From Amycolatopsis cihanbeyliensis (lineage in GTDB: Bacteria > Actinomycetota > Actinomycetes > Mycobacteriales > Pseudonocardiaceae), in assembly GCF_006715045.1 (NCBI RefSeq), contig NZ_VFML01000001.1, positions 5,490,001-5,554,000 of the forward strand: DNA of 64,000 nt. The letters run 5' to 3'. The position numbers were made by a program, and so were the translations under genes. Under the pieces are notes generated by a model that was given only the letters and a program-made list of their open reading frames with translations, did not search any database and was not told the DNA's origin. The number at the start of each line of letters is the position of its first letter. Position 1 is the first letter of the stretch. Positions 20,270 to 63,100 of the stretch are shown in pieces.

Positions 20270-23200
20270 TCACTCCTGTTGCGACAGCACGGCGAACACC
20301 ACCGGGTCGGGAAGGCCGTTGATAGTGGTGCTCAAGGTGGCCACCCGCGCGTCGCCTGCCGACAGCACGACCCAGCCACCTTCATGGACTCGGTGCACGG
20401 TCAGCGTCCGATCGGTCACCCCGGCCTTGCGTAGGCACTCCAGCGCACACCACATTCGGGTGCCGGCCACGTCGGCGTCCTCCGCGGACTCGGCCATCAC
20501 CAGGTCGCGGATGTCGCGGAGGCCGTCGCCGAGCAGCCCGGCCCAGTCCTTCTCCGTGCGGTGCGCCACCGTCTCGACATCGCAGCCGAGCCGGCCCGGC
20601 CCGGCCACCACCAGGCTCAGGCCCGCGCCGTGGGACGCCGAGATCGTGGCGCCGTCCACTTCCGGCCTGCCGTCCGGCCGGTGCCGCACCGTCACCGGTC
20701 TACCGAAGCCGCGGCTCGCGGCCAGCCCGGTCTGTGCCCGCCGATCGGCCGGTACGCCCGGCTCGGGATCCGGTTCGACGACCACCGCGCGGCCGCCGCC
20801 GAGTACCCGCTCCAGCGCCCGCTCGAGGTAGCCGCTGAGCATCGCGGGTACCCACGGGCCGGAACCGTCCTTCTTCCGCACCGCGCGGAGTGTCAGACCT
20901 TGCCAGTGTTCGATCACCCGGCCGGCCGGTTCGAGCACGTCGATGTCGTAGACGTAGCTGTCGCCGTCCCGTACGCGCTCCCTGGCATCCACGATCACAT
21001 AGTCGACGTGTTGGTCGGTGGGTGCCGCCAGGTACAGCCGCTGCACACTCTGCGGGAGGAGGGTCGCGTCGGGCACGCAGCACTGGAGTGCGTGCATCAC
21101 CGCGTCTCGCGTACCCGGGTTCGCCAGCACCTGATCCTGCGGCAGGTAGGCGGCGAACCACGGCGCAGGCGTGGTGGTGGACAGCTCCGCGACCGCGTGC
21201 CGGGCGCTTGCTCTCCGGTAACCGAGCAGGCGCTGGAATCGCTTGCCCTGGAACATCACCGTGCCGTAGAGCTCGGTGATCGGGTCGACCGGCACCGGCG
21301 GTAACCGGGTGGCCTCCCGCGCGGTGTCGCCTTCAGGCAGGGGTGGCCGCGGCAGTCGCAGCGTAGCCCGGAAGTGGTCGGCACCGAACCCGGTGTCTTC
21401 GGCACGGATGGCCACCGACACTGTCTCGTTGTCGCGGACCAGTGCCGCCAGCCGCACGGACGTCGCGGTACCCGGGCGGGCCACGATCGGTCGCAGGAAC
21501 TCCACGTCCTCGAGCAGTGGGACACCGGTCCGGCCGAGCACGGCCGTCGCGACCTGCGCCATCGCCTCCATCCCCACGACAGCGGGGAACAGCAGGTCGC
21601 CGTCCAGCAGGTGGTCGGACAGGTACGGGTCGCTGCCGGGGGACAGCTCGACCTCGGTGACCAGCTCGACGTTCGGGTAGTGCACCAGCACCCGGTCGAC
21701 GAATCGGGTCAGCGGCAGCTCCTGGCTCCTGTCCAGGGGCAACGTCGGCAATCCGCCCATCCGGCCGGTGATCGTCAGCACCGGCCCGGCCGAGGGGTCG
21801 GCCAGCACCTGGCGCAGCACGCTCACGCCGTCTTCCACCGAGATTGGCGTGATGCCGTCGCGCAGGAGTGCCTCGACCACGCCCAACCGCTCGCCCATTC
21901 CGGCTCCCGACCACACCGACCACTCCATCGCCAGCACCCGGGCCTCCGGGTGTGCGCGCTGGAAGTCGACGGCCAGCTCGGTCATCCAGTCGTTGGCGGT
22001 CGAGTAGTGCGCCTCGCCGCTCAGCCCGGCCCGGCCGATGATGCTGCCGAACGTGACCAGCAGTTTGAGCCTGTCCTGGGCCACGGCGTCGAGCACCGCG
22101 CGAAGGCCGGAGACCTTGACGGCGAGCGTCTGGTGGAACCGTTCCTCGGTCAGGTTGGTGAGCGCGGCCGGTTCGTTGCGGCCCGCGCCGTGCATCACCG
22201 CGGTGACCGGGCCGAGGTCGGCCTCGAACCGCGCCACGGCCGCGGCGACCTGGTCGGCATCGGTGACATCGGCGCGCTCGTACCGGCAGACCACGCCCGC
22301 GGCGGCCATCCTGGCCAGGTTGGCCGATATCTCCTCGTCGCGGGCAGGGTCGTCCCGGCCGGTCAACGCGAGCTTGGCGCCCGAGTCCCTCGCCATGGCC
22401 AGCGCGCACTCGGCGGTGATGCCCTTGGCGCCGCCGGTGACCAGCAGCACGTCGGAACCGTCCAGCGGCGTGCCGGTCCGCGGCTCGGTGGGCGGCTGTA
22501 GCACGTGCAGCACCGGCACCGTCCGCCCGCCGCCGGCGTCGTAGCGGACCTCGCTGAACGACGTCGTGGCAGCGGCTTCGATGACCACCCGCCGCGCCGC
22601 GTCGTCCAGCTCGGCACCGGTCGGCGAAGCGAGGTCCGCCAGCGTGACGATCGTGGTCGGTACGCCCGTCGCCTCCAAGAACGCGGTCCTGGCCAAGCCG
22701 GACGCCCCGAACCTGTGCTGTACCACGACGAACCGGGTGCCCGGTGGCGCGTCCGCGGCAGCCTGGCCCGCCTTCAGGAACAGCTCGACGTGCTCCTCAC
22801 CGCTGTCCGGAAGGCACAGCAGCACGCCGTCGCCGATGCCGGCCTCGGCGAGCGCGACCCGCAGCCGCTCGGCGAGCGGGTGGCCTGCCGGTGCGAACGC
22901 CTGCCAGGTACCGGCCGGACCGGTGCCGATGTCCACCTCTGGCGCCCGGACCGCCACCTGGTCGACGGAGAACGGCCGCACCCACTGCCCGACGCCGGCC
23001 ACCTCGGTGCTGCCGCCGCCGTTCCCTTCGCCTTGCGCCGACTCGGCCAGCCCGTCGATCAGCTCGGCGATCTCGCCGAGCGTCGCGGTGGCGAAGCTGG
23101 TCGTCGCCTCCAACGTGGGCAAGCCGAGCCGGCTGGTGGCGTCGTTGACGAGTTGGCCGACGGTGATCGAGCTCAGGTGCAGGTGGTCGAGCGGGTGGGT

Positions 23201-26146
23201 GGCCTCGGTCACGGTCTCCAGCGGCAGCTCGACGCGTTCGGCGGCGAGCGTGCGCAGCAGATCCAGTGTGGACGGGTCGGCATCGCCGGAACCGGTGGCC
23301 GCGGCCATTTCGGTGGCGGTGTCGGCGGCGGGCACTGCCAGCCCGACCGCGAGGTCGGGAGCGGTCTCGCAGGGACTCGCCAGGAAGGTGAATCCGCCTT
23401 CCAGCGGCAGCGGACGCAGCACCCGGCCGCCGAACAGCGCCTCGGTGTCGACCGCGGCGCCCAGCGCGTGGGCGGCGCCGAGCACGGACAGCAGCGAGTC
23501 GAGCGACCTGCTGTCGGCGTCGACCGGCAGCACCGGCGTGTCCGGCGCGATATCGCGCAGCAGGCCCGTGAGCACCCGCCCCGGGCCGACCTCCACGGCG
23601 AGGTCGGCCCCGGTGGCGGCCTTGGCGGCTGCCTCGTGGAAACGGACCGGGCACAGGACCTGGTCCCGCAGCAGCACGCGTAGGTCGGTGTCCGGATCGA
23701 GCAGGTCACCGGTCACCGTGGACACCACCGCTCGGGTGGGCCGGGTGAAGGTGAACTCGGCGAGCCGCCCCGCCATCGCCTCGTATGCGGGCCTGACCAG
23801 CGACGAGTGGAACGCGTGCGAGACGTTGATTCGGCTCGCGGTGATGCCGGCGGCCCGTGCTCGCGCACACACGCGGTCCACGGCGCCCGCGTCGCCCGCG
23901 ACGACCGTCTGCTCCGGTCCGTTGTATCCGGCGATCACCACCGGGTCGTCCGCGCACAGCTCTTCGGCCCGGTCAGGAGTGGTGGCGAGACCGGCCATTG
24001 TGCCCCCGCCCCGGCTGGCGTTGGCCATGACTTCTCCGCGTACCTTTGCCAAGCGCAGCACGTCGGTGGTGCTCATGGCACCCGCCCAGGCCAGCGCGGT
24101 CAGCTCGCCGAGGCTGTGGCCGACCGCGACGTCGGCGTCGATGCCCAGCGTGTGCAGCACTCGCAGGGCCGCGACGGAGCCGGCGACGATGCGCGGCTGC
24201 GCCACCTGGGTGGCCACCTGGTCACCGCCGGTCGGCACGCCCGCCTGCTCGAACACGGCCTCCGCGGCGGCGAAACGGCGGTGGATCGCGCCGAAGGGAC
24301 CACGTCCGGATCCCTGGCCGGGGAACAGGTAGGCGATCCTCGGCGCGGTCAGCCGCCGGTCGAGGAAGATCCCGTCCACGGCGAACAGGCTCCGCTCGCC
24401 CGAGTCGAGCGCGGCGAGCAGCCGGCCGAGCTTGGCGGTGGCGTCCTCGGGGTCGGTGGTCACGACGGCAGCGCGCACCGGGCCGCCGGAGAGCTGCCCG
24501 GCCAGCGTCCCTGCCAGGTCGGCGACCTCGGCGAACGACAGCGCGGGCGCCAGCTCGGCCAGCCCGGCGACCCGACCGCGCAGCTCGGTGTGGTCCGCGG
24601 CGTCCAGCAGCAGTAGCTCGGCGTCCTGCCTGCTGCCGGTCAGCGTCACCGTCCGCATGGGCAGCTCGGCGCGGCGGGTGGTGCCGACCGCCCGCTCGAG
24701 CGCGATGTGCGTGTTGACGCCGCCGAAGCCCATTGCCGACACACCAGCCCTGATCGGCCGGTCGGCGGGCCAGAGCCCCGGTCCGCGCGGGACGTACAGG
24801 GCGGGGGCGTCGCCGGTGAGCTCCGGGTGCGGCTCGTCGTGCCCGGTGGCCGGCGGGATGATCTGGTGGTGGACCGAGAGGGCTGCCTTGATCAGCCCGC
24901 CGACGCCCGCGGCTGCCTTGGTGTGGCCGAAGTTGCCCTTGATCGAGCTGATCGCGGCCGGCCGACCGGCAGGGTCGGCTTCACGCAGGGTCGAGCCGAT
25001 CGCCTCGAGCTCGGTGGCGTCGCCGAGCGCGGTTCCCGTGCCGTGGCCCTCGAAGTAGCCGACGGTCTCCACGCCGTACCCGGCCCTGGCGTAGGCGCGC
25101 CGGATGGCCAGCCGGTGACCTCCGGCCTCCGGGCGCGTGATGCCGCCCTTGCCGTCGGAGGAAATGCCCCAGCCGGTGATCGACGCGTAGATGCGCAGAC
25201 CGCGGGCGACGGCGTCGGTCTCGCGCATCAGGACGACGACGCCCGCGCCTTCGCCCGGCCAGAAGCCGTTGGAGTCCTTGTCGTAGACCTTCATCTCGTC
25301 CGCTGCCAGCGCCCCGGTCTTGGCGAAGCCGATCACCTCGAACGGGTCGATGGAAAGGTCGACGCCGCCCGCGAGGCCGACGTCGAGGTCGCCGTCGGTC
25401 AGCGCCTTGGCCGCGGTGGCGACCGAGATCAGCGAGGAGGAGCAGGCGCCGTCGACGGTGTAACCACCGCCGCGGAGGTCGAAGTAGTTGCACGTGCGTC
25501 CCGCGATGGTGTTGGCGAGCCCGCCGGCGAGGCTGTCCTCGTCGACGGGCGGGAACGGCGCCTTGTACACCGATTCCAGGTCACGCAGGAAGGCGCTGGT
25601 CTCGTCGTCCTCCCAGCCCTTGGCGGCCAGCGCGGCGGCGAGGGTGCGCCGGACGTAGGGCCAGCGCAACCGCATCAGGTTGGCGCGGGAGAACTCGCCG
25701 GTCAAGCTGTTGCCGAAGACCACGCCGGTGGTCTCGCGGGGCAGGCCCACCGCGTCCGGGAAGCCGGCGTCGGCCAGTGCCGTCGCCGCGACGTCCAGCG
25801 CCAGCCAGTGCGTGAGGTCTGTCGACCGGAAGGTGCTGCCCGCGATTTTGTACTTGAGCCGATCGAACTCGTAGTCGCGCAGTACGGCCGCCTTGTCGGT
25901 ATAGAAGCGGTCCGGCGCGTTCGGGTCGGGCGAGTAGTAGTCCGCGTGGTTCATCCGCTCGTCGGGCAGCCTACGGAAGGCACGTCGCCCGGCCAGGACG
26001 TTCTCCCAGAGATCCTGGGTGCTGGCGGCGTCGGGGTAACGAAGTCCGATGCCAACGATCGCGATCCGCTCGGTGCTCAAACCTGTACCGCCTGTTCGAC
26101 GCGCTTTCCGGTTCGCAGCCAAGTGTGCCGCCGTGCCGCGGTACAT
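20270..26146 (-). CDS. pksE: Enediyne iterative type I polyketide synthase (KS-AT-ACP-KR-DH-PPTase)
   Basis: This 1958-residue megasynthase builds the polyene precursor of the enediyne core. Domains are KS (about 25 to 465; Cys235 in DGACSSS, then HGTG and GNFGHTKAAAG), AT (about 600 to 890; GQGSG and GHSLGE) and ACP (serine in HLSSITVGQ near 990). They continue with KR (GGAKGI near 1232; Tyr in HYSTANDW near 1380), DH (YLSDHLLDG near 1512) and a fused phosphopantetheinyl transferase (GCDVE near 1854; WCALECLRKA near 1900). This order and the C-terminal PPTase are unique to enediyne PKSs. The ATG at 26146 has AGGAAGAGAAG upstream; a TTG at 26080 just before the KS is an alternative. All catalytic residues I can check are intact. 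Confidence 0.97.
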   Translation of the reverse strand: MYRGTAAHLAANRKARRTGGTGLSTERIAIVGIGLRYPDAASTQDLWENVLAGRRAFRRLPDERMNHADYYSPDPNAPDRFYTDKAAVLRDYEFDRLKYKIAGSTFRSTDLTHWLALDVAATALADAGFPDAVGLPRETTGVVFGNSLTGEFSRANLMRLRWPYVRRTLAAALAAKGWEDDETSAFLRDLESVYKAPFPPVDEDSLAGGLANTIAGRTCNYFDLRGGGYTVDGACSSSLISVATAAKALTDGDLDVGLAGGVDLSIDPFEVIGFAKTGALAADEMKVYDKDSNGFWPGEGAGVVVLMRETDAVARGLRIYASITGWGISSDGKGGITRPEAGGHRLAIRRAYARAGYGVETVGYFEGHGTGTALGDATELEAIGSTLREADPAGRPAAISSIKGNFGHTKAAAGVGGLIKAALSVHHQIIPPATGHDEPHPELTGDAPALYVPRGPGLWPADRPIRAGVSAMGFGGVNTHIALERAVGTTRRAELPMRTVTLTGSRQDAELLLLDAADHTELRGRVAGLAELAPALSFAEVADLAGTLAGQLSGGPVRAAVVTTDPEDATAKLGRLLAALDSGERSLFAVDGIFLDRRLTAPRIAYLFPGQGSGRGPFGAIHRRFAAAEAVFEQAGVPTGGDQVATQVAQPRIVAGSVAALRVLHTLGIDADVAVGHSLGELTALAWAGAMSTTDVLRLAKVRGEVMANASRGGGTMAGLATTPDRAEELCADDPVVIAGYNGPEQTVVAGDAGAVDRVCARARAAGITASRINVSHAFHSSLVRPAYEAMAGRLAEFTFTRPTRAVVSTVTGDLLDPDTDLRVLLRDQVLCPVRFHEAAAKAATGADLAVEVGPGRVLTGLLRDIAPDTPVLPVDADSRSLDSLLSVLGAAHALGAAVDTEALFGGRVLRPLPLEGGFTFLASPCETAPDLAVGLAVPAADTATEMAAATGSGDADPSTLDLLRTLAAERVELPLETVTEATHPLDHLHLSSITVGQLVNDATSRLGLPTLEATTSFATATLGEIAELIDGLAESAQGEGNGGGSTEVAGVGQWVRPFSVDQVAVRAPEVDIGTGPAGTWQAFAPAGHPLAERLRVALAEAGIGDGVLLCLPDSGEEHVELFLKAGQAAADAPPGTRFVVVQHRFGASGLARTAFLEATGVPTTIVTLADLASPTGAELDDAARRVVIEAAATTSFSEVRYDAGGGRTVPVLHVLQPPTEPRTGTPLDGSDVLLVTGGAKGITAECALAMARDSGAKLALTGRDDPARDEEISANLARMAAAGVVCRYERADVTDADQVAAAVARFEADLGPVTAVMHGAGRNEPAALTNLTEERFHQTLAVKVSGLRAVLDAVAQDRLKLLVTFGSIIGRAGLSGEAHYSTANDWMTELAVDFQRAHPEARVLAMEWSVWSGAGMGERLGVVEALLRDGITPISVEDGVSVLRQVLADPSAGPVLTITGRMGGLPTLPLDRSQELPLTRFVDRVLVHYPNVELVTEVELSPGSDPYLSDHLLDGDLLFPAVVGMEAMAQVATAVLGRTGVPLLEDVEFLRPIVARPGTATSVRLAALVRDNETVSVAIRAEDTGFGADHFRATLRLPRPPLPEGDTAREATRLPPVPVDPITELYGTVMFQGKRFQRLLGYRRASARHAVAELSTTTPAPWFAAYLPQDQVLANPGTRDAVMHALQCCVPDATLLPQSVQRLYLAAPTDQHVDYVIVDARERVRDGDSYVYDIDVLEPAGRVIEHWQGLTLRAVRKKDGSGPWVPAMLSGYLERALERVLGGGRAVVVEPDPEPGVPADRRAQTGLAASRGFGRPVTVRHRPDGRPEVDGATISASHGAGLSLVVAGPGRLGCDVETVAHRTEKDWAGLLGDGLRDIRDLVMAESAEDADVAGTRMWCALECLRKAGVTDRTLTVHRVHEGGWVVLSAGDARVATLSTTINGLPDPVVFAVLSQQE

Positions 26147-36671: not shown

Positions 36672-36675
<4 letters not shown>
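35221..36675 (+). CDS. MFS exporter (DHA2, EmrB/QacA type)
   Basis: The 484-residue protein has about 14 membrane helices. Motif A is LIDRLGRQRVLLAG near residue 80 and motif C-like sequence is ALGPWLGGAL near 162. It is distinct in sequence from the exporter at 6297. It lies between the desaturase and the lipid PKS with overlapping junctions on both sides, so it probably exports the lipid product or a precursor. GGAGGA is nine bases before the ATG. Confidence 0.87.
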
Positions 36676-43153
<6,478 letters not shown>

Positions 43154-43157
<4 letters not shown>

Positions 43158-52801: not shown

Positions 52802-53737
52802 CTATGCACCCGAAAGGTCAGTACGCCCCTCGCTGTGCACCGACAGGATGTCCGTGATCGCCCGGTTGCACGGCGTGGGAACACCGAGCGCGGCGCCGCG
52901 CTCGACCACGTCACCGCTGAGCCAGTCGACCTCGAGCCGGTTGCCGCGTTCGAGGTCGTGGTGCATCGACGAGGTCATGCCCGCGGACACCTGATCGGTG
53001 AAGGCGAGCCGATCGTCGGCGTAGTCGGCGGGCAGCGGCACTCCTGTGGCGCGCGCGACCCGCACCACCTCGTCCATCACGTCGCGAAGGAAAGCGCGAG
53101 CACGTGGATGGTCGCGGATCGGTCCGATCGTCGTGCGGGAGGTGCTGGTCGTGCCGGAAAGCCCGACCAGGAACACGAACTTCTCCCAGACGGCCTGCTC
53201 GATCCGGTCGCTGATCTCGACGTCGATCCCGCTGCCGGCGCAGGCGTCGCGGAACTCCCGCACCCGCGGTGAGATGGCGCCGTCGTACTCGCCGAGCACC
53301 AGCTTCTGCAGCGTGCCGGAGTGGCGAATGACCCCCGGCTCGGCGATCGTGGCGGCGATGTAGCACACCCCGCCGATGACCTGCGCGTCACCGAGGACGC
53401 GTCGCAGGATGTCGTCCTTCACCACGCCGTTCTGGAGCGACACCACACCGGTTTGCTCGGTGAGCAGCGGCCTGACGAGCTCGGCCGAGGCCTCCGTGTC
53501 CCACAGTTTCACCCCGAACAGCACCAGGTCGACCGGATCCAGCTCGGCGGGATCGTCGGTGACCTCGACCTCGGGCAGATGCGCGTCGCCGAGCGGGCTC
53601 TCCACCCGCAGGCCGTGCGCACGCAGCGCCTCGAGCTGGCGTCCCCTGGCCACGAAGGCGACATCGTGGCCGCCCCGCGCCAGCCGGGCGCCGAAGTAGC
53701 CGCCCACCCCACCGGTTCCCATCACCGCGATCCGCAT
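52802..53737 (-). CDS. panE: Ketopantoate reductase family protein (ApbA/PanE)
   Basis: This 311-residue protein has the N-terminal Rossmann motif MGTGGVGGYFGARLA (GxGxxG), a lysine in FGVKLWDT, NGV in LQNGVVKDD near 105, and a C-terminal helical domain with the catalytic-type lysine in WEKFVFLVG and a serine/aspartate region DYADDR. Classical members reduce ketopantoate with NADPH for pantothenate; many paralogues act on other 2-keto acids. AGGAGG precedes the ATG. It is the last gene on the strand of the defence-like genes, 31 bases after the nuclease-like gene, and may simply be their neighbour. Confidence 0.85.
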   Translation of the reverse strand: MRIAVMGTGGVGGYFGARLARGGHDVAFVARGRQLEALRAHGLRVESPLGDAHLPEVEVTDDPAELDPVDLVLFGVKLWDTEASAELVRPLLTEQTGVVSLQNGVVKDDILRRVLGDAQVIGGVCYIAATIAEPGVIRHSGTLQKLVLGEYDGAISPRVREFRDACAGSGIDVEISDRIEQAVWEKFVFLVGLSGTTSTSRTTIGPIRDHPRARAFLRDVMDEVVRVARATGVPLPADYADDRLAFTDQVSAGMTSSMHHDLERGNRLEVDWLSGDVVERGAALGVPTPCNRAITDILSVHSEGRTDLSGA

Positions 53738-53768: not shown

Positions 53769-55604
53769 CTACCGGCTACCGATCACCACGAGCTCATCGC
53801 ACTGGCCGGTGATCGTTCTTCTCGTGCTGTGCAGCAGATTGTCCAGCAACCGCAGGCAGTGCGTGTCGCGGGTCTCCTTGCCGGCCGCGGTGGCCGCCCG
53901 GGCCTGCTCATGTGTGGCCCGCAGCAGGTGCGGCTGGACGATGGCCACTTTCGTGGGATCGCTGTCCAAGCGTAGCCGCAGCTGGTCGACGAAGTCGGCC
54001 GGCGCGATGCGCTGACCGTCGTGCCACGCCGCGTGCGCCGCGACGCGCGGCACGGCGAGCCTGTTGACGAGCGTTTCCGCGCGCAGGGAGGTCACGTTCT
54101 TCTCCGCCTGGCTGACGAGCTGCTCGAACCCTGTCACGGCGAGCCGCCTGGTTGGTGAGTCGCTCGCCGCGGCCTTGACGTGGATCGCCGTCAGCGTTCC
54201 GTCGTCGGCCAGGTGCAGGAAGTCGGCGATCTCGCCCGCGCCGTCGTCGCAGAGCAGCCAGCCGACCCCGAATCGGTGTACGACCCAGGCGAACAGGGAA
54301 CTGTCGCCACCGATGCCGATCGCGTCGTGGATGGCCCGGTCTCCGTGCACCGCAGGCTTCTCCCGAGTGACCAGGTATCCACCGAAGTCCTCGAACTGGA
54401 GGTTCGTGAACGGTGCGTCGACCAGGCTCCGCCAATGGATGTGGCGCCCGTCGAAAGCGTGCCCGGATCCGTAGTACAGGGTGAGCAGGCCCCCGGTCGC
54501 GAGAGCGTCCTTGATCTGCGCCAGCTCAGCGCCCATCGGCGGACCGTTGTGCCGCACCTCGAGCCGGAACCCGCTGTGTGCCCTCACCGGGTTCAACATG
54601 AACGTCGCCTTGGCATCGCCGATCACCACGTCCAGCTCCGTGGTCGCCGAATCAGGCCGGCCACGTACCTCCATGGTTGCCTGGGCGAGCAACTCGGCGT
54701 AGCGGATCTCGTCCGCACCGGCATCGGCCTCGCCGCGCATCTGGTCAGGATCACTCACCGCGATGTCGACGGCGAACCTTACCCTGGCCAGGTCGGTCTC
54801 GGGCACGGCGAGCCCACCGAAGGGCAGCGCGGGCGAGGCCTCCGAGACAAGTTCCTTGCCCAGCATGTCGAGCGCTTCGCCGGTGGCGGCGAGGAACATC
54901 GGGAATTCTGTGGTCTGCTTCCAGGAGATCTTGGACTTGTCCGGCGACACGGTCAGCAGATCACGAAGGACGGCGGTGTCGTTGCCGGGCACGTAGTGGA
55001 TCTTCGCGGCGCTCAGCGCGAAACCGCCGTCCTCCAGCGGATGCAATGCGTCCTGGAGTCGGAGGCCGGTCAGGGCTTTGCCGTCCGGCCTCGTGGCCCG
55101 GCGGCGGTGCACCCCGCGCATCCAGATCATCCGGCCGTCGCCGTGGAACGTTCCCGCCAGCACCTCGGCGGGGAAGAACCGGAACTCGGCGTTCCGTTCC
55201 ACCCAACTCCTGAGCTGGGACTCGCTCGTGATGGTGGTGCAGACCGCGACGAGGCGGTTCCTTCGCGTGGCGAGGGTGAGGTGGTTGTGGAGATCGACGA
55301 TGCCCGACTCCGCCATCGCCCACCCCGGGGAACGCACGACCTGGCGGTACACGCCGTAGAGACTGTCGAACCCGAGTTCCCGCAGAGTTCCCAGCGACTC
55401 GATCGCGTCGCCGGCCAGTTTGGTCACCTCGGCTCGCACCCGGCACGATGCCGCTCGCCCTCGCTTTCCCGCCGATTCGCGCAGGAACACTGTGAGGCTC
55501 GCGAACGCGATCTGCGGATCCTCGCCGGTGCATTCCAGCACCGTGATCGACAGATACGGGTTGAGCTCGGCCAGCGGCAGTTCCGGCAGGGATTCGTGGT
55601 CCAT
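53769..55604 (-). CDS. Unknown protein with putative nuclease-like C-terminal motif
   Basis: This 611-residue protein matches no family I can name. Around residue 455 it has LLCDDGAGEIADFLHL...LTAIHVKAA, an arrangement (D, then E, then a hydrophobic-x-K) like a restriction-endonuclease (PD-(D/E)xK) core. The middle shows predicted beta-rich sequence. No signal peptide or membrane helix is seen. It follows the helicase and winged-helix genes on the same strand, and this setting supports a nucleic-acid role. The nuclease call is inference. Confidence 0.5.
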   Translation of the reverse strand: MDHESLPELPLAELNPYLSITVLECTGEDPQIAFASLTVFLRESAGKRGRAASCRVRAEVTKLAGDAIESLGTLRELGFDSLYGVYRQVVRSPGWAMAESGIVDLHNHLTLATRRNRLVAVCTTITSESQLRSWVERNAEFRFFPAEVLAGTFHGDGRMIWMRGVHRRRATRPDGKALTGLRLQDALHPLEDGGFALSAAKIHYVPGNDTAVLRDLLTVSPDKSKISWKQTTEFPMFLAATGEALDMLGKELVSEASPALPFGGLAVPETDLARVRFAVDIAVSDPDQMRGEADAGADEIRYAELLAQATMEVRGRPDSATTELDVVIGDAKATFMLNPVRAHSGFRLEVRHNGPPMGAELAQIKDALATGGLLTLYYGSGHAFDGRHIHWRSLVDAPFTNLQFEDFGGYLVTREKPAVHGDRAIHDAIGIGGDSSLFAWVVHRFGVGWLLCDDGAGEIADFLHLADDGTLTAIHVKAAASDSPTRRLAVTGFEQLVSQAEKNVTSLRAETLVNRLAVPRVAAHAAWHDGQRIAPADFVDQLRLRLDSDPTKVAIVQPHLLRATHEQARAATAAGKETRDTHCLRLLDNLLHSTRRTITGQCDELVVIGSR

Positions 55605-55688
55605 CGCCGCTGACGCTAGCTACGCGTGCCGCGCGAAACCATACTGGAAAAGGCTTCGTCAGCGGTTTGACCACAAGCTGTCCAATGG

Positions 55689-56888
55689 TCAATTCAAGCT
55701 GTCGAGGAGTAATACCAGTGCGTCCCGTCCCGCCGCGGCCGCCATCGCGCGCAACGCCGACAAGTCGGTCGACTCGAATCCCAGCTGCCTGCCCGCCTTC
55801 GTCGCGAGCGCGGTGACCTCGCCTGCCTTTCGCTGCCTCGCCCGGGCGAACGACTCCACCCGATCAAGGAACCCCTGCTCCCGTAGCTCCTTGTCCGCAC
55901 ACCAGATCCGTACGACGGTCGTGCTCAACGCTGCGAACGAGCCGAGGCTGGCGCACGGGATCGGCCCGGACGGCTCGAAGGCCGATCTCGGAAGCTCTAC
56001 CTGCCACCCGCCGTGCGGGAACCGGACGGGCCGGTACCCGGACAGTCCTTTGCGCAGCAGCCAGCTGGTTATCCGGGTCCGCTGCTCCTCTTCTGTCGTG
56101 TCCTCGTTCGCGAGCGCGCCTTGGATCTCCGGGGCCTGCTCACACAGTTCGCTCAGCTCGGGGTCGGCGGTGTCGGCCGCCTGACCGTAGGCCAGGAAGC
56201 GGATCTTGCCGCCGGGTTGCACCGCACGGATCACGTGCACCGGCAGGAAGACACACTCCTCACCCAGGCTTTCCGGCCGGTCGAGGCGGTGCGGCAGGTT
56301 GTAGCGTTCCCGGTCGCGATAGCGGGCGAGTTCGGCCAGCGTTTCGCGGCGGAAACCCTTGGTCGTGGCGAGCAGTCGGAAGTCCTGGTCGCGCCCGTGC
56401 ATGGCGCCGGCTTGCGCGAGCGTCAAGAAGGTGACGACCCCGGCGTCATAGTGCCGGCGGGTGAGTGGCAGCGAGGTGTACCCGTCGAAGTACAGCCGGC
56501 GGCGGTCCTGCCGTTCGACGACATAACACACCTGGTCGCGATGCGAGTTCCGGCCGAGGTCGGTCAGCGTGAGCCCGCCGTCCGGTGTCCCGGTGAGGTG
56601 ACCGATACCGGCGAGGAAACGGATGGCGCGGTCGACCAGGACCTCGTCGAGCGAGAAAAATGCCGCGAGCTCGGCCACTGTGTTCAGGCCGCATTCGGCG
56701 AGACCTCGCTCGAGATAGCGGTCGATGAGCTCGTACGGCTTCCCTTCGACGGTCGTTGCCCTGACGTCGACCTGCCATACGGGCAGCAGCAGTGAGAACA
56801 ACCTGACTGGGGTGAAGCCGTGCCGGAAAGCGGCGTCCTCCAGAGCCCGTTCCTTCCGGTAGGGCATGACGGCCTTGCCCGCGTTCAC
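55689..56888 (-). CDS. Winged-helix protein of unknown function, helicase partner
   Basis: The 399-residue protein shows a winged-helix-like stretch near residues 60 to 115 (VAELAAFFSLDEVLVDRAIRFL then GGLTLTDLGRN). The rest is mixed alpha/beta without known motifs. The GTG start overlaps the helicase stop (GTGA) and has GGGGAG eight bases upstream; an ATG seven codons later is possible. The tight coupling says it works with the helicase. Function unknown. Confidence 0.6.
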   Translation of the reverse strand: MNAGKAVMPYRKERALEDAAFRHGFTPVRLFSLLLPVWQVDVRATTVEGKPYELIDRYLERGLAECGLNTVAELAAFFSLDEVLVDRAIRFLAGIGHLTGTPDGGLTLTDLGRNSHRDQVCYVVERQDRRRLYFDGYTSLPLTRRHYDAGVVTFLTLAQAGAMHGRDQDFRLLATTKGFRRETLAELARYRDRERYNLPHRLDRPESLGEECVFLPVHVIRAVQPGGKIRFLAYGQAADTADPELSELCEQAPEIQGALANEDTTEEEQRTRITSWLLRKGLSGYRPVRFPHGGWQVELPRSAFEPSGPIPCASLGSFAALSTTVVRIWCADKELREQGFLDRVESFARARQRKAGEVTALATKAGRQLGFESTDLSALRAMAAAAGRDALVLLLDSLN

Positions 56889-59815
56889 GGTGCGAGCTCC
56901 CCGAGCCGGTGCCAGATGTCCGTGCTCCGGCGGAGGTCGCCGTCGGCCAGGACGTGCTCGTGCAGCCGCCCGACAAGTTCGCGGAAGCCCGGATCCTGTG
57001 CGCGCGACAGCATCTCGAGATCGCCGACGAGGACGAGCTGCTGTTTCGCTCGGGTGAACGCGACGTTCGCGCGTCGTAGCTCGTCGAGAAAGCCGACCCG
57101 GGCGGCGGGGTTGCTGCGAGTGAACCCGTAGAGGATGACGTCGCGCTCCCCGCCCTGGAACGAGTCGACCGTGCCGACCCCCGACTCCACAATGTCCTGG
57201 TCGGGAATGTGCTCCTGGAGACGGCTGACGACGAGGCGCCGCTGCGCCGCATACGGAACGATGAGCGCCCATTCCTTCCCCCGGGTGTGATAGTGGGTGG
57301 CGAGCCTGCACAACAGATGTGCCTCCGCCGAGTTTTCCGTACCCTGTTCCGCGCGCCGCTCCCGGCGTTTGGCTTCCGGCAGATCGGAGGTGTCGACGAA
57401 CGCCAGCGGGCTCGCGAAAACCCCGTCATCATGTACCCGCGTGACCATGGTCTGCAGCTTTCCGCCGTAGAAGGCCTCCGAGACGAAGTCCGCGACCGTC
57501 CTCGGCATGCGGCGCTGCTGGGTCAGCATGTCGACGTGGCTGCCCGGCAGCGCGCCGACGAGGTTCTCGAGCGTGCTCCGCTGCAGAAGTGCCCGGACCT
57601 CGGGATCGCGCCCGGCTTCGCCAAGCGACGCGAGTACCTCGTGCTCGACGATGGGCGGCAGCTGCCGATGATCTCCTACGAGCACCGCGCGCCGCGCGCG
57701 GACCAGCGGTACCAACACGTCCGCCGTGGCGATCTGCCCGGCTTCGTCGATGATCACGAGGTCGAACTCCTCGTCCGCGATCTCCGCCCGGGACGCGGCC
57801 CCGATGCAGGTCGCGCCGACGACGTCGGCGTATCGGATCAGTTCCGGATGCAACTGCTCGGTGTCGCCGGCGATGTCCTCCCGCCAGTCCGCAAGTACCG
57901 CGGCCCGCGCCGCCAGGAGCTGGAGCTGGGGACCGAGTCGCGCATGGAATGTGCTGAGCGCATCGAGGGCCTGCCCCGTCGCCCCGGGCTCGGCGGTGCC
58001 ATCCACCGGCGGTACGGGGAGTACCGGGCCGAGGGCCCTGGCCAGCGCCGATGCGGCGGTGAGCGCTTCGTCCCGGCGTTGCTCGCCTTCGCGTACGGCC
58101 TGGTCCAGCCGCGCGCGTGCATCGCGGACCGCGGGCACGCCCCGGGTCACCCGCTCCACCTCCGCTTCCGCCTGGCTGAGTGCTTGCTGCGTGGTCGACG
58201 CTTCCTCGCTCAGCGCGGTCAGCCGCGCGCCGGCCGCAGCGAGCCGCCGCTGACGCGAGCGGGCGACGGCGTCGGTCAGGAGCCCGAGAACCGGCAGTCT
58301 CCGCCCAGCCCGAGCCATCCGCAGGCCGAGGCGTTCGGCCTTGCGGCGTACACCGATCGCCGTGCGCTCCAGTTCGGCGATCCTGGCGGCCAGCCGTTCC
58401 ACGTTCTGCTGCGCCTGCCCGCCCGTCGCGCGGCGGTGCGCCGTCCATTCGGCACGCAGCTCGTGCTCGGTCGCGAGGGCCTCGGTCAGCTTGGCGATCC
58501 GCCGTTCGAGCTCGATGTGCCATTCGCGCGCGTGCGGTACTCCGGCGTAGCGCCCGAGCGTGCTGCCGGTCGCGGCGATGAGCTCGTCACGCAGGTCGGC
58601 GGCCCAGCGCTCGAGGAGGAACGGCCGGGCGTCCGGGTCGATCTTGCTTTCGTTGCCCATTCGCACCACGAGGACGTCCCGCGGCAGCTTGGCAAGGACG
58701 TTGTCGACCGCGCGGTTGGTGTGCGACGCGATCAGCACGCTGCCCCGTCCCGCCCCGAGGGCGTGCGCGCGGGCCATCTGACTGATGGCCCGCGTCTTCC
58801 CGGTTCCCGGCGGGCCCAGGACGACCATCAGGTCGCGCACGCCGAGCGACTTCCGGAACGCGGCCAGCTGGTCCGGGTCCAGCTCCTCGCCTGGTTCCGC
58901 GCGCACCGTGTCGATCGGCTGGACGTGGTGGTCGACCAGGACGTCCAGCAGCGACGAGTTTCGCGCCTGGCGTGCCCGCAACAGGGCGATCGCCTCTCGT
59001 CGCTTGGCGTACGCGACGTCGGTCACGGTCGGCATCAGCTCGCCCTGCTGGGCCAGCCGCTCCCAGTCCACCTGCCGGTCGAACCGGACGGTGACCTTGC
59101 CATCGGTCACTCGCGTGACATGCCCTCGCTGGTCCGGCTCGCCGCGCACCTGCACGAACGCGTTCCGCTCGGGCGTCACGCCGCCGACGATGTGGAACCG
59201 GTACATGCCGGCGGCGCTGTACCGGCGTTCCCCGACCGGCTCGACGGCGCGGTAGGGGAACGTCGGTAGCCGGCCGGCGTTATCGACACTCAGTCGGTGC
59301 ACTGCGTCGTTCAGCCGGTCGAGTGCGTCGAGAAACCTGGTGTGCTGGGTTTCCAGTTCGGGAGTGCCCGCGGAGTCCCCCAGCTCGGACTGTAGCTTGT
59401 GCCATGCCTGCAACATGCCGTTCCAGCCGGCGTCCGCGCCCTGTGGCACCTGGCGGATCTCCGGCACCGGGCGCCAGACGGTGCGCACGAGCAGGCACCC
59501 CCTTGCCAGCTTGTCGTGCTCTCGCAACCGCAGTGGCGCGGCCCAGTTGACGTGGTACGCGTCGCCGCGACGGCTCAGCCCCAGCTTGACCACGTAAGCG
59601 TCCGTGTGCAGCTGCAGGCTGAAACCGGTGTCGCTGCCCTCCCACGGGGTGAACGTCACCGGCACGCCGTCGCCGCGGGCGGACAGGTCGGTGACGATCT
59701 CGTCGAGCCCCCGGGGGAGCGCCGGATGATCCTTCCGTTGCTTGACGATTCCCTCGTGCAGCTTCCGGCCCGGCACGAGGAAGATCGGCGCGCGCAGATC
59801 CACGGTTTTCAGCAC
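56885..59815 (-). CDS. SF1 (Upf1/Dna2-like) helicase with coiled-coil insert
   Basis: This 976-residue protein has a full SF1B helicase core: Walker A GPPGTGKT near residue 330, Walker B IIDEAG near 690, VGDHRQLPP near 718, QQRRMP near 770, and VDSFQGGERDVI and ANVAFTRAKQQLVLVGD near the end. Residues about 430 to 600 form a long charged coiled coil. The N-terminal 300 residues are unique. The GTG start has a weak ribosome site. It is in a row with a SEFIR-pseudokinase gene and a winged-helix gene, typical of phage-defence operons. Confidence 0.85.
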   Translation of the reverse strand: MLKTVDLRAPIFLVPGRKLHEGIVKQRKDHPALPRGLDEIVTDLSARGDGVPVTFTPWEGSDTGFSLQLHTDAYVVKLGLSRRGDAYHVNWAAPLRLREHDKLARGCLLVRTVWRPVPEIRQVPQGADAGWNGMLQAWHKLQSELGDSAGTPELETQHTRFLDALDRLNDAVHRLSVDNAGRLPTFPYRAVEPVGERRYSAAGMYRFHIVGGVTPERNAFVQVRGEPDQRGHVTRVTDGKVTVRFDRQVDWERLAQQGELMPTVTDVAYAKRREAIALLRARQARNSSLLDVLVDHHVQPIDTVRAEPGEELDPDQLAAFRKSLGVRDLMVVLGPPGTGKTRAISQMARAHALGAGRGSVLIASHTNRAVDNVLAKLPRDVLVVRMGNESKIDPDARPFLLERWAADLRDELIAATGSTLGRYAGVPHAREWHIELERRIAKLTEALATEHELRAEWTAHRRATGGQAQQNVERLAARIAELERTAIGVRRKAERLGLRMARAGRRLPVLGLLTDAVARSRQRRLAAAGARLTALSEEASTTQQALSQAEAEVERVTRGVPAVRDARARLDQAVREGEQRRDEALTAASALARALGPVLPVPPVDGTAEPGATGQALDALSTFHARLGPQLQLLAARAAVLADWREDIAGDTEQLHPELIRYADVVGATCIGAASRAEIADEEFDLVIIDEAGQIATADVLVPLVRARRAVLVGDHRQLPPIVEHEVLASLGEAGRDPEVRALLQRSTLENLVGALPGSHVDMLTQQRRMPRTVADFVSEAFYGGKLQTMVTRVHDDGVFASPLAFVDTSDLPEAKRRERRAEQGTENSAEAHLLCRLATHYHTRGKEWALIVPYAAQRRLVVSRLQEHIPDQDIVESGVGTVDSFQGGERDVILYGFTRSNPAARVGFLDELRRANVAFTRAKQQLVLVGDLEMLSRAQDPGFRELVGRLHEHVLADGDLRRSTDIWHRLGELAP

Positions 59816-59824
59816 CGGTGTCGT

Positions 59825-61240
59825 TCAGCCCCTCAGTGCGGTTTCGAGCTCGTCCATGCCGGGACGCCGCGCGGCGTCGCATGCGAGTGCGGCGTCGATC
59901 GCCGTGGCCGCCCGTGCGGGGACCCTGGGTGCGAGGGCATGGATCGGCAACGGCGTGCCTGGGTCGGGTGGGTGGCTTGTCACCAGGTGATAGGCGATCG
60001 CCGCGAGCCGGAAGACGTCGGTCCACGGACCGGCCCGGCCACCGTGCCGGCGTTCCTGTTCGGACGCCCGGTAGTCCGGCGGGACCTCGCCGGGGCGTTC
60101 GCCACGACCGGCGTCGCCGAGGTCCCGGAGCACGAACGTCCGGTCATCGAGCCGGAGAACACCCGCAGGGGTCAGCCGGCGGTGGGTGTGCCGCGTGGCA
60201 TGCAGGACCGACAGCGACCGGGCGAGCCCGCCCAGCGCGCGAAGCTGGCCCAGCGCGTGCCAGGAATCGACCATCTCGCCCGGCCGTGGCACGAAGTCGG
60301 CCAACGTGCCGCACGGGTCGCCCGGGTCGCCGGAGACCGGCCAGGCGGTCACCAATGTGGTCACGTGCCCGTCCTCGGCCAGCTGGACCAGGCTGGGCAG
60401 GCCGCGGTCTTTTCCGCGCAACCGCACGAGGAGGTCTCGCTCATGTCCGAGTGCGGCGATCTCGTCCTTCGCCGCGGACGTGTCGTGGCGCAACGCCACC
60501 TGACGCAGCCACACGTGCTCGTGCGACCGGTCGAGCCGCAGGGCTCTGCCCTGGCTCCGTACGGCGGCGTGGTCCGCGACCGGTTCGCTCTCCAGGTCGC
60601 CCTGGACCAGGTAGACACTGCCGCCGATCCTCACCTCCGCGCCCGCGGCGATGACCCCGTCCGGTGCGGCGGGCGGGGCCGGTGTCGCGAGCACGATCGA
60701 CTGTTCGGGTGGCAGCGGCGGGAAGTACGGCCCAAGCGGGGGCAGCGGGTATGGCGTTGAGCCGGTGAGCACGTGCAACAACTCGCCCAGGCCGGCGAGG
60801 TTGATCTCGGGAACCGCATACGACGTCGTCGAGTATGGGCGTAGTACCTCGGGGAGGTCGTCGGGATCGCCGCAGGGAAGCACGACCGGAAGGATGCGAC
60901 CCAGGTCCTCCTCCGGGCCGCGGGCCAGGATGTTCCTGATCATCGCGGCTTCGACGTGCGTGAGCTGTCCTGGTGCGGCCGAATAAGCCTTGTCCAGCAC
61001 CCTCTTGTAGGCGGGCGACGCGATGACGACGATGAAGTCGGCCTCGTCGATCTCCTGGAGCGCCCAGGCGACCCGGTCGCGTCGCTGCGCCTGGAACCAC
61101 TCCTCGATTCGCGCGTCCACACCGGCGTCCGTCCGCAGGAAGGTCGCGAAATCCCGCGCCGCCGTCTCGTGCTCCACCGAATCCCGTGCGAACGAGACGA
61201 ACACCCGCGGGGGCACCGCGGCCTCGTCAGGCTCCCGCAC
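59825..61240 (-). CDS. SEFIR/TIR-domain protein with C-terminal pseudokinase
   Basis: This 471-residue protein starts with a SEFIR/TIR domain (about 10 to 175; VFVSFARDS, EEWF, DADF/VVIASPAYKRV, then HVEAAMIRN). A proline-rich linker leads to a kinase-like domain. In that part the catalytic loop reads HRRLTPAGV in place of HRDLKPxN and the DFG equivalent is DLG, so it should be catalytically dead. Bacterial SEFIR domains act in abortive defence, some by NAD degradation. The GTG at 61240 was chosen for GAAGGGA upstream; a GTG at 61294 lacks a ribosome site. Confidence 0.75.
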   Translation of the reverse strand: MREPDEAAVPPRVFVSFARDSVEHETAARDFATFLRTDAGVDARIEEWFQAQRRDRVAWALQEIDEADFIVVIASPAYKRVLDKAYSAAPGQLTHVEAAMIRNILARGPEEDLGRILPVVLPCGDPDDLPEVLRPYSTTSYAVPEINLAGLGELLHVLTGSTPYPLPPLGPYFPPLPPEQSIVLATPAPPAAPDGVIAAGAEVRIGGSVYLVQGDLESEPVADHAAVRSQGRALRLDRSHEHVWLRQVALRHDTSAAKDEIAALGHERDLLVRLRGKDRGLPSLVQLAEDGHVTTLVTAWPVSGDPGDPCGTLADFVPRPGEMVDSWHALGQLRALGGLARSLSVLHATRHTHRRLTPAGVLRLDDRTFVLRDLGDAGRGERPGEVPPDYRASEQERRHGGRAGPWTDVFRLAAIAYHLVTSHPPDPGTPLPIHALAPRVPARAATAIDAALACDAARRPGMDELETALRG

Positions 61241-61421
61241 CAGCACCTGTCCCTTCGCTCCAGCCTGTGATCGACGCGGCCACAAAGGTCTCACGGAAGG
61301 TAGTTGGCAGACAGCCGTATCTCGAAACTGTCATTGATTTGTCCAGCCGCTGCCGCGTGAACACCCGTACGCGGATTGCTATCGTTCTCGACCGGCACGC
61401 GAGCGTCGAAGAGGGACACCG

Positions 61422-62021
61422 TTGACCAGCCCATACGTCTTCATCTCCTACACGCACGACAGTGACGAGCACCGCGACGACGTGCGGGAGCTCGCCACCC
61501 TTCTCGTCTCGTCCGGGATCGGCGTGATCCTCGATGAATGGGCGGGGGTGGCGCGCAAGGACTGGTATCCCTGGGCACTGGACGGCATGTCCGGCGCCGA
61601 CTACGTCCTGGTGATCGCGTCGGAAGGTTACCGCCGGATGGGCGACGGCACCGGCCCGAACGACGCGAACTACGGCGGCCGGGTCGAGGCCGCCTTGCTG
61701 CGGGACTTCCTGCAACGCGATCGCGACCGGTGGACCAGGAAGATCCTGCCCGTGTTGCTCCCCGGCCACTCGGTCGCGGAGATCCCGGACTTCCTCCAAC
61801 CCTATGCCGCCGACCATTACCCGGTCGTGTCACTGACCACGAGCGGTGCCGAAGGGCTGCTACGCGCGGTCACCGGCCAGGCCGCGCACATCCGGCCGCC
61901 GCTGGGGCCGCTGGTCAGCCTCCCACCCAGGTCCGGTCCGGGAGCAGGAACGCCCGAGGCACGAAGGGACTCCGGGCAGCCCCGCTGGACGGCGCCGCCC
62001 GAACCGCCACCGCCGGTCTGA
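61422..62021 (+). CDS. Stand-alone SEFIR-domain protein
   Basis: This 199-residue protein is a SEFIR domain (YVFISYTHDSDEH at the N-terminus, DEWAG, YVLVIASEGYRRM, VEAALLRD) with a proline-rich tail of about 40 residues. It resembles the SEFIR part of the divergent gene, so the two may be paralogues. The start is TTG, with AGAGGGA seven bases upstream. It is transcribed away from the defence-like operon across about 180 bases. Confidence 0.72.
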   Translation: MTSPYVFISYTHDSDEHRDDVRELATLLVSSGIGVILDEWAGVARKDWYPWALDGMSGADYVLVIASEGYRRMGDGTGPNDANYGGRVEAALLRDFLQRDRDRWTRKILPVLLPGHSVAEIPDFLQPYAADHYPVVSLTTSGAEGLLRAVTGQAAHIRPPLGPLVSLPPRSGPGAGTPEARRDSGQPRWTAPPEPPPPV

Positions 62022-62127
62022 CGGTCGACCATTCCGAGAAGGCCGCCTGGACCTGGACAACCGACGAAGCTTCCCAGGACACCGGACTCGCCGTGAACTC
62101 GACACTGTCGGACCCTGCGGGTGTGTG

Positions 62128-62182: not shown

Positions 62183-63100
62183 ATGACCAGCGTCGACAGT
62201 CACCAGCGCGCGGACGCGCCCCAGTCCGACCGCCAGTCGGTCGCGCAGCGGCTGCTGGACTCCTCGGAGACCTTGTCGTACGACCCGGTCACGGAGGTCG
62301 ACTGGGAGACACCGCTGGACACGAGCTACCACGGCGCGAGCCCGGAGTGGAGTACTCTGTACGGCACGTCGTACTGGAAGGAGATGACCCCGGAGCGGCA
62401 GCGCGAGCTGACCCGCCAGGAGGCGGCGTCGGTCGCCAGCACCGGGATCTGGTTCGAGATGATCCTGCAGCAGATGGTGCTGCGGGACTTCTACGCGAAG
62501 GACCCGACCGATCCGGCGTTCCAGTGGGCGCTGACCGAGATCGCCGACGAGTGCCGGCACTCCATCATGTTCGCGCGAGGCGCCGCGAAGCTGCGCGCGC
62601 CCGCCTACCGGCCGCGGCGGATGGTCGTCGAACTCGGCCGACTGTTCAAGACGGTGGCCTTCGGGGAGGCCGCCTACGCCGCGATCCTGGTCGCCGAGGA
62701 GGTCCTCGACGTCATGCAGCGGGACTGGATGCGGGACGAGCGGGTGGCGCCCTTCGTCCGGACGGTCAACAACATCCACGTGGTCGAGGAATCGCGGCAC
62801 ATGAAGTTCGCCAGGGAGGAGACCAAGGAACGGCTGGAGGGCGCAGGACGGCTGCGGAAGCAGATCAACGCCCTGGTCGTCGCCATCGCCTCGTACTTCA
62901 TCGTCACCAGCATGGTCAACAAGAAGGTCTACGCGAACGCCGGGCTCGACACCAAGCGGGCCCTGCGGGAGGCCGCGGCGAACCAGCACCACAAGTCGAT
63001 GCTGCGCTCGAGCTGCGCTGGGCTGATGGAGTTCCTCAACTCGGCCGGGCTGCTGACGAAGGCGTCCATGTGGTTCTACAAGCGTGCCAATCTGATCTGA
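62183..63100 (+). CDS. AurF-type di-iron oxygenase
   Basis: This 305-residue helical protein carries two Glu/His metal motifs: EIADECRHSIMF near residue 122 and VVEESRHMKFA near 200, with extra ligands in RQEAAS and AEEVLD. This fits the AurF (p-aminobenzoate N-oxygenase) family PF11583. Many actinobacterial members act with TetR-controlled redox genes and have unknown substrates. GGGAG precedes the ATG. The ferredoxin-linked reductase starts 11 bases after the stop and should supply electrons. Confidence 0.85.
   Translation: MTSVDSHQRADAPQSDRQSVAQRLLDSSETLSYDPVTEVDWETPLDTSYHGASPEWSTLYGTSYWKEMTPERQRELTRQEAASVASTGIWFEMILQQMVLRDFYAKDPTDPAFQWALTEIADECRHSIMFARGAAKLRAPAYRPRRMVVELGRLFKTVAFGEAAYAAILVAEEVLDVMQRDWMRDERVAPFVRTVNNIHVVEESRHMKFAREETKERLEGAGRLRKQINALVVAIASYFIVTSMVNKKVYANAGLDTKRALREAAANQHHKSMLRSSCAGLMEFLNSAGLLTKASMWFYKRANLI

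Follow-up and report, generated by a model that had tools for sequence, protein, structure and literature searches.

A probable split relative of Mokosh type I

Within a 64,000-nucleotide stretch of the 7.4 Mb genome of Amycolatopsis cihanbeyliensis (contig NZ_VFML01000001.1, positions 5,490,001 to 5,554,000; hereafter the window), five genes at 53769..62021, here called A to E, probably constitute a split and diverged relative of the defence system Mokosh type I. We propose that a nucleic-acid sensor formed by C and B would be coupled through the pseudokinase D to swappable effectors, with a relay from the SEFIR domain of D to that of E, and with A as an optional addition. We document the gene set, its homologies, the loss of kinase residues, the exchange of modules and the pairing of SEFIR genes; the role in defence, the NADase activity and the SEFIR relay we infer from sequence.

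The layout given in the initial annotation holds, also in a codon-usage gene call, namely four genes on one strand with short gaps or overlaps and a divergent SEFIR gene. E (61422..62021, plus strand, 199 aa) is a stand-alone SEFIR protein, and the other genes follow on the minus strand in the order D, C, B, A. D (59825..61246, alternative start at 61240; 473 aa), C (56885..59815; 976 aa) and B (55689..56888; 399 aa) are tightly packed, with a gap of 9 bp between D and C and an overlap of 4 bp between C and B; 84 bp separate B from A (53769..55604; 611 aa). The intergenic space between the two SEFIR genes (61247..61421) presumably holds divergent promoters. The gene set is conserved and of defence type, as had been noted, with SEFIR domains, a kinase that appears dead and a nucleic-acid helicase. 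The statement that it matches no named system needs revision, since likeness to Mokosh type I, namely to its MkoA and MkoB, is seen in the helicase, the kinase and the putative winged-helix protein; an exact match to a named system was not found.

C matched the PADLOC MkoA profile at 5.7e-109, with the best stretch at profile positions 532-1097 of 1112, and D matched the same profile at 9.8e-10 over positions 46-275 of 1112 (59831..60472, minus strand, the pseudokinase part). Because D and C match separate, non-overlapping halves of one profile, MkoA is represented here by two proteins. The assignment of C as a superfamily 1 (SF1) helicase holds, with AAA_11 (7.9e-39) and AAA_12 (1.3e-36) above the Pfam cut-off; the protein is UPF1/IGHMBP2-like, and its matches among Protein Data Bank (PDB) sequences are SMUBP-2, DNA2 and NAM7/UPF1. 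It also matched MkoC (4.4e-37), best in the helicase core. B matched PADLOC MkoB at 3.5e-12 in its 399-aa form (6.1e-12 in a longer frame), residues 33-265 aligning with profile positions 8-253 of 610; all 23 proteins of the B alignment also matched MkoB at E <= 0.01. The suggested kinship rests on the three profile matches jointly, within one operon and in the expected order of kinase, helicase and MkoB.

A whole-genome search with the MkoB profile, used only for this purpose, yielded one canonical Mokosh type I locus, in a genome belonging to the same class (L095; L and G numbers are our designations of loci and genomes). This locus encodes an MkoA of 1145 aa, in which kinase and helicase are fused and VKLLK, HRD and DFG are present, and an MkoB of 466 aa that includes a PLD-like domain (PLDc_2). 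In hhalign comparisons, 119 columns link the D family to the L095 kinase, restricted to the C-terminal part (probability 96.8, E 2.2e-10), and 120 columns link the B family to the first third of the L095 MkoB (probability 81.1, E 1.2e-5). The SF1 helicase and the kinase fold correspond to the two halves of MkoA and B to the front of MkoB. In contrast to Mokosh type I, the kinase here is a protein of its own, has lost catalytic residues and is joined to SEFIR or other modules, and a second SEFIR gene is present, as is A in 7/17 SEFIR loci. D and C are separate genes in the window and in the gene-called kinase loci, whereas kinase and helicase are fused in L095. A PLD-like domain is named for Mokosh I in a passage of PMC10952713; Pfam gave no PLD match among the 23 B proteins, and the MkoB match of B stops well before the end of the profile. 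Pfam found no PLD match in C either, which sets it apart from Mokosh type II, which we take to be one protein with helicase and PLD.

In a helicase tree, 51 family rows stood apart from one canonical MkoA and two VWA-linked helicases (Shimodaira-Hasegawa-like approximate likelihood ratio test, SH-aLRT, 99, with a long-branch warning at this point). Two same-class genomes carry a cousin arrangement (L096:1189-8083, L097:1364-8258) of a small TerY-type VWA-like gene (by eye), a kinase, an SF1 helicase of 1124 aa and an MkoB-like protein; the kinase (Pkinase 3e-16 in L096) retains the beta3 Lys and the catalytic Asp by eye. Matches of C to the NCBIfam entries 'PLuB' (143.7 bits, cut-off 999) and 'IGHMBP2 family' (238.5 bits, cut-off 348.9) were set aside as general helicase likeness, and no report of a PLuB or UPF1-like helicase system acting against phage was found, judging by titles and abstract starts. 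UPF1-like helicases are ascribed to CoCoNuTs in a passage of PMC11090510.

The D kinase has lost catalytic residues and carries exchangeable modules

The kinase domain of D is, by its residues, predicted to be dead. In the window protein, Arg occupies the beta3 Lys position and HRD reads HRR, with DLG retained. Across a census of 45 D proteins (L068, L149 and L156 not included), the beta3 position was Arg in 44 and Lys in one, a count that the use of the WLR motif for cutting the census stretches may tilt somewhat towards Arg. The HRD Asp was found in 1/45 and the following Asn in 0/45; the DFG Asp was present in 45/45. Nearly all D proteins lack residues of an active Ser/Thr kinase that are present in L095 (VAIK/HRD/DFG); that these residues can serve as a family criterion is our assumption. 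A weak match of D to MAD6, a kinase of MADS, was also seen (28.6 bits, cut-off 460).

The DLHK pseudokinases, according to part of PMC12599244, share with D the absence of the beta3 lysine and are often linked to helicase and DNA2 domains. Compared by that description, they retain the HRD Asp, have a degraded DFG and are mainly proteobacterial, whereas the proteins studied here have lost the HRD Asp, retain the DFG Asp and are actinobacterial.

The N-terminal module of D varies. Among 46 loci, we counted SEFIR in 17, a short stretch in 12, PNP_UDP_1 in 11 (Streptomyces), TIR in 2, a BTAD link in 2, and DUF4145 and a membrane-like segment in one each. Pfam, run on 16 D proteins, covered 5/17 SEFIR, 4/11 PNP_UDP_1, 2/2 TIR, 2/2 BTAD and 1/1 DUF4145 modules; the others were assigned by BLAST likeness or by eye, including the membrane-like one (T2SSF 0.03). 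The BTAD domain is fused to the kinase in one Actinomadura locus and encoded by the adjacent gene in another. Beyond these 46 loci, tblastn added a TIR form in L149 and a short form in L156. Eleven of the 12 short N-termini (L034, L040, L135, L141-L144, L153-L155 and L157) show, by eye, a VxGxVVQAGxIxGxVH-like stretch before the pseudokinase, which we take to resemble RHIM-like or BASS amyloid signalling motifs. Placed on the helicase tree, the module labels fell into ten groups with 12 changes (minimum 9; the PNP type alone, 3). The modules therefore mostly go with clades, and exchange is real and infrequent.

Two further observations concern D and its surroundings. The D gene of L068 is split between two frames, one with the SEFIR part and one with the kinase part (L068:10552-11864), owing to a genuine disruption or to a sequencing error. 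An M48 peptidase gene lies in the fetched stretch of 6/46 loci (L034, L040, L139, L140, L142 and L152; Pfam on four proteins) and is perhaps another output protein.

SEFIR-bearing D genes are paired with a divergent SEFIR gene

Both D (2.1e-11, residues 30-162 of a 489-aa frame, 60809..61207 on the minus strand) and E (2.6e-11) contain a SEFIR domain above the Pfam cut-off, so that, together with the lost kinase residues, the label SEFIR-pseudokinase given to D in the initial annotation proved apt. A divergent stand-alone SEFIR gene was found at 16/17 loci with a SEFIR-bearing D and at 0/29 loci with other kinase modules (Fisher p 1.7e-11). The exception, L139, has a SEFIR-D alone; L142, of the short type, has a SEFIR gene elsewhere in the locus. 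By a quick method, the helicase tree unites all loci of the SEFIR type in a single clade (SH-aLRT 95).

Against the PADLOC profile for bSEFIR (PDLC03957), E scored 3.9e-24 over positions 35-193 of 412 and D 1.2e-13. Both SEFIR domains thus match the front of this profile; E differs from bSEFIR in that it is a 199-aa protein without the remainder of the profile and adjoins a helicase operon. E proteins come in two sizes, with 7 short (162-207 aa) and 7 long (332-397 aa) among the 14 measured.

The two partners differ in a helix motif, GGxxEAxxLR(D/E). Its Glu was present in 15/15 E proteins, including that of the window (residue 89, 61686-61688), versus 9/16 D proteins, where the column held E in 9, G in 4, and D, A and T in one each. 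This count leaves out the E of L075, which is cut by the end of the stretch, and the frame-split D of L068. On the helicase tree the column changed at least 3 times, gains not being separated from losses. Because the Glu is constant in E and variable in D, we read D as released from catalytic constraint while E would remain an enzyme. The helix Glu had at first been assumed to be the catalytic Glu of TIR domains; this was dropped, as the TIR alignment does not show equivalence.

Other SEFIR genes occur nearby in this and related genomes. About 1.2 kb past the end of the window lies a third SEFIR gene of the host genome, on the plus strand (L004:5239-8442), encoding a 1067-aa NLR-like protein of SEFIR-NB-ARC-TPR architecture; all three Pfam SEFIR matches found in the genome fall within 5 kb. 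A series of a further SEFIR gene, a TIR protein and a CATASP/ParA-like protein was seen at L018:13025-16508, L021:12683-16026 and L158:3-2981, the SEFIR gene of L018, the only one of these run through Pfam, carrying an NPCBM domain.

Recurrence, selection and genomic setting

Presence of the family is patchy. B had a match at E <= 0.001 in 11 of 199 relatives, one of them weak (G108) and 8 from the same genus, the host genome included. In GTDB contigs B was found at 23 loci, and among 297 family genomes 40 had a match at E <= 0.001, 34 of these over most of B. Having excluded duplicates (L028-L030, L033, L047, L130-L134, L159), loci where our reading lacked C, B or both (L026, L027, L050, L158) and six weak family-genome matches, we retained 52 loci with C and B; in L149, C and B were called only as short genes. 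In 48/52, C has a kinase gene next to it, which for L021, L149 and L156 was found by tblastn rather than in the initial gene calls.

D-C-B recurs in 16 further loci, with the divergent SEFIR gene in 15 and the 611-aa gene in 6. In the close pair L136/L137, the ratio of nonsynonymous to synonymous substitution rates (dN/dS) was 0.335 (D), 0.163 (C), 0.193 (B) and 0.439 (E), values that point to purifying selection within this pair. The recurrence of D-C-B and the apparent purifying selection indicate that the gene set is not a chance assembly. Co-occurrence elsewhere, which the initial annotation had named as a check on its candidate five-gene system, is thus borne out for E-D-C-B, most clearly in the SEFIR pairing; the 611-aa gene A does not belong to the core.

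A is present in 7/17 loci with a SEFIR-kinase and in 0/29 others, and is missing from 10/17 SEFIR loci. Including partial matches, it occurs in 36/297 family genomes. In 16 neighbourhoods around A, the full operon was found in two (L068, L075), and no C or B was called in 14. In one of these 14, L069, the neighbour of A is a SEFIR gene; the surroundings resemble those in L021, but E-D-C-B is absent. We therefore rejected A as a core member, in view of the 10 SEFIR loci and the 14 neighbourhoods, and regard it as an optional accessory. The label nuclease-like given to it rests on a conserved CDDGxGExADFLH...HVK block (54168..54251, minus strand), in which C452, D453, D454, G457, E458, D461, H464 and V476 are invariant and H475 and K477 nearly so over 18 aligned rows; by eye this could be a PD-(D/E)xK-like core, so that A is possibly a nuclease. 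The library searches gave one weak match, to PADLOC PDC-S71 (1.2e-6), and nothing useful in Pfam (window protein and the 18 aligned rows), NCBIfam or PDB sequences. A gene of 315-380 aa recurs beside A or SEFIR genes (L069:7980-9011, L070:8042-9037, L072:4400-5395, and by eye L020:2558-3505 and L021:3457-4599); for the copy in L021, Pfam gave nothing at E <= 0.01.

B is probably a winged-helix protein, as annotated. ArsR/MarR-like and similar matches were weak (E 0.01-0.4), each of the MarR ones appearing in 1/23 homologues, and the B profile matched the start of an MkoB over 120 columns.

On the left, the locus is flanked by a gene resembling ketopantoate reductase by eye (52802-53737), and on the right by an AurF gene (62183-63100; Pfam AurF 8.9e-103) whose product is 97% identical to that of the near relative G013. 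In blastn, DNA homology with G013 begins at ~62125, and no match was found in the 17 kb compared leftward of this point. This break in synteny places the SEFIR genes at the edge of an accessory block, whose approximate right end is 62125. Elsewhere in the window, two very large gene calls (20270-26080, 1936 aa; 36672-43157, 2161 aa) have the look of a polyketide synthase or similar assembly line by eye.

Weighing the evidence

Several observations weigh against a split Mokosh relative with a SEFIR relay. The MkoB profile is unspecific: it matched 8/14 control genomes and 91/296 phylum genomes, mostly over the PLD part or a short front stretch, and the MkoB match alone therefore proves little. 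C resembles UPF1-like helicases in general, and the specificity control covered the MkoB profile, not MkoA. No kinase gene was detected near C by tblastn in 4/52 loci with C and B (L022, L023, L044, L150), and no relatives of B were found in viral contigs or plasmid collections, which thus give no hint that a phage or plasmid carries the system. Since the SEFIR loci form one clade, the pairing counts are not independent, and 46 loci are not 46 events. As for the division of labour between D and E, three TIR domains taken from loci of the family place their Glu at F96 and not in the helix-Glu column; the adjacent residue 95 is D or E in 15/15 E proteins, while the 16 D proteins have D (11) or N (5) there. 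The SEFIR domain of D may itself act, because 9/16 D proteins, that of the window included, keep the helix Glu and because L139 has a SEFIR-D without E. The window E, in turn, seems to have lost a C-terminal domain: residues 251-280 of the L018 E matched 62003..62095 (plus strand) in tblastn with 42% identity, in a frame different from that of the SEFIR part, a weak and short match that probably marks an out-of-frame remnant of the domain found in long E homologues. Finally, BTAD, being a transcription-activator domain, fits defence less well than the other modules.

The BTAD domain in or beside the kinase gene at two Actinomadura loci also speaks for another idea, in which D and E serve signalling or regulation in actinobacterial physiology rather than defence and the helicase works in RNA surveillance or genome upkeep; conservation as a clade, with dN/dS under 1 for one pair, would fit it too. 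We consider this unlikely in view of the patchy presence (11/199 relatives, most of them of the same genus), the synteny break at the locus, the SEFIR, TIR and PNP output modules, and the kinship to a defence system. If the operon were plain Mokosh type I with a drifted sequence, relying on an active kinase and a nuclease MkoB, the MkoA and MkoB profile matches would be accounted for. Such a system is improbable here, given that the kinase is separate and has lost catalytic residues in nearly all 45 D proteins, that B lacks a PLD match, and that L095, of the same class, retains the fusion, the VAIK/HRD/DFG residues and the PLD domain. It is very improbable that E, as a bSEFIR gene, and D-C-B, as a Mokosh-like operon, are independent neighbours with no functional link: the better bSEFIR match of E compared with D, and the further SEFIR genes elsewhere in L017, L018, L021 and L142, would fit such neighbours, yet the divergent E occurs at nearly every locus with a SEFIR-D and at none with other kinase modules.

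Proposed mechanism and implications

In the split Mokosh relative that we favour, C with B would most likely sense nucleic acid, for instance abnormal phage nucleic acid, as suggested by the UPF1-like homology of the helicase. Mokosh is said to degrade viral transcripts in a passage of PMC11291487, which would fit an RNA target. Sensing would change the state of D, whose pseudokinase, having lost catalytic residues, could serve as a coupling or scaffold domain, and whose N-terminus carries the output module, a SEFIR domain in the window and different ones in related loci. The SEFIR domain of D probably recruits or nucleates E. E in turn would most likely deplete nicotinamide adenine dinucleotide (NAD) and so stop the growth of the infected cell; this step draws on kinship to TIR and on the listing of SEFIR defence as NAD depletion in a passage of PMC12322248. 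A, possibly a nuclease, would be an optional accessory.

NLR-type modular immunity, for example SEFIR-NB-ARC-TPR, shares with this scheme a sensor provided with an N-terminal SEFIR or TIR module, and differs in that the sensor proposed here is a helicase with an MkoB-like protein, acting through a pseudokinase, and not a STAND ATPase. Animal IL-17 signalling uses a relay from SEFIR to SEFIR, and the proposed relay from D to E would be its bacterial counterpart. Mokosh and SEFIR defence are already known. The split architecture appears to be new, as neither a split Mokosh with a module-bearing pseudokinase nor a SEFIR pair in such a system was found in the titles, abstract starts and passages of open-access literature, and there is a real chance that the family merits its own name.

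A wider view, possible though one we hold tentatively, is that of an actinobacterial immune family with a helicase/MkoB-like core, a pseudokinase adaptor and interchangeable outputs (SEFIR, TIR, PNP, DUF4145, BTAD, the RHIM-like stretch and the membrane segment). In its SEFIR branch, the adaptor SEFIR would have been freed of catalysis several times, the signal passing to a second SEFIR enzyme. If this is true, Mokosh-like helicase sensors would be modular in the manner of NLR-like receptors, effectors being plugged in through a dead kinase. The family would then offer a simple bacterial setting in which to study the role of pseudokinases in immunity, and one in which to ask whether SEFIR domains signal to each other as they do in IL-17 receptor signalling.

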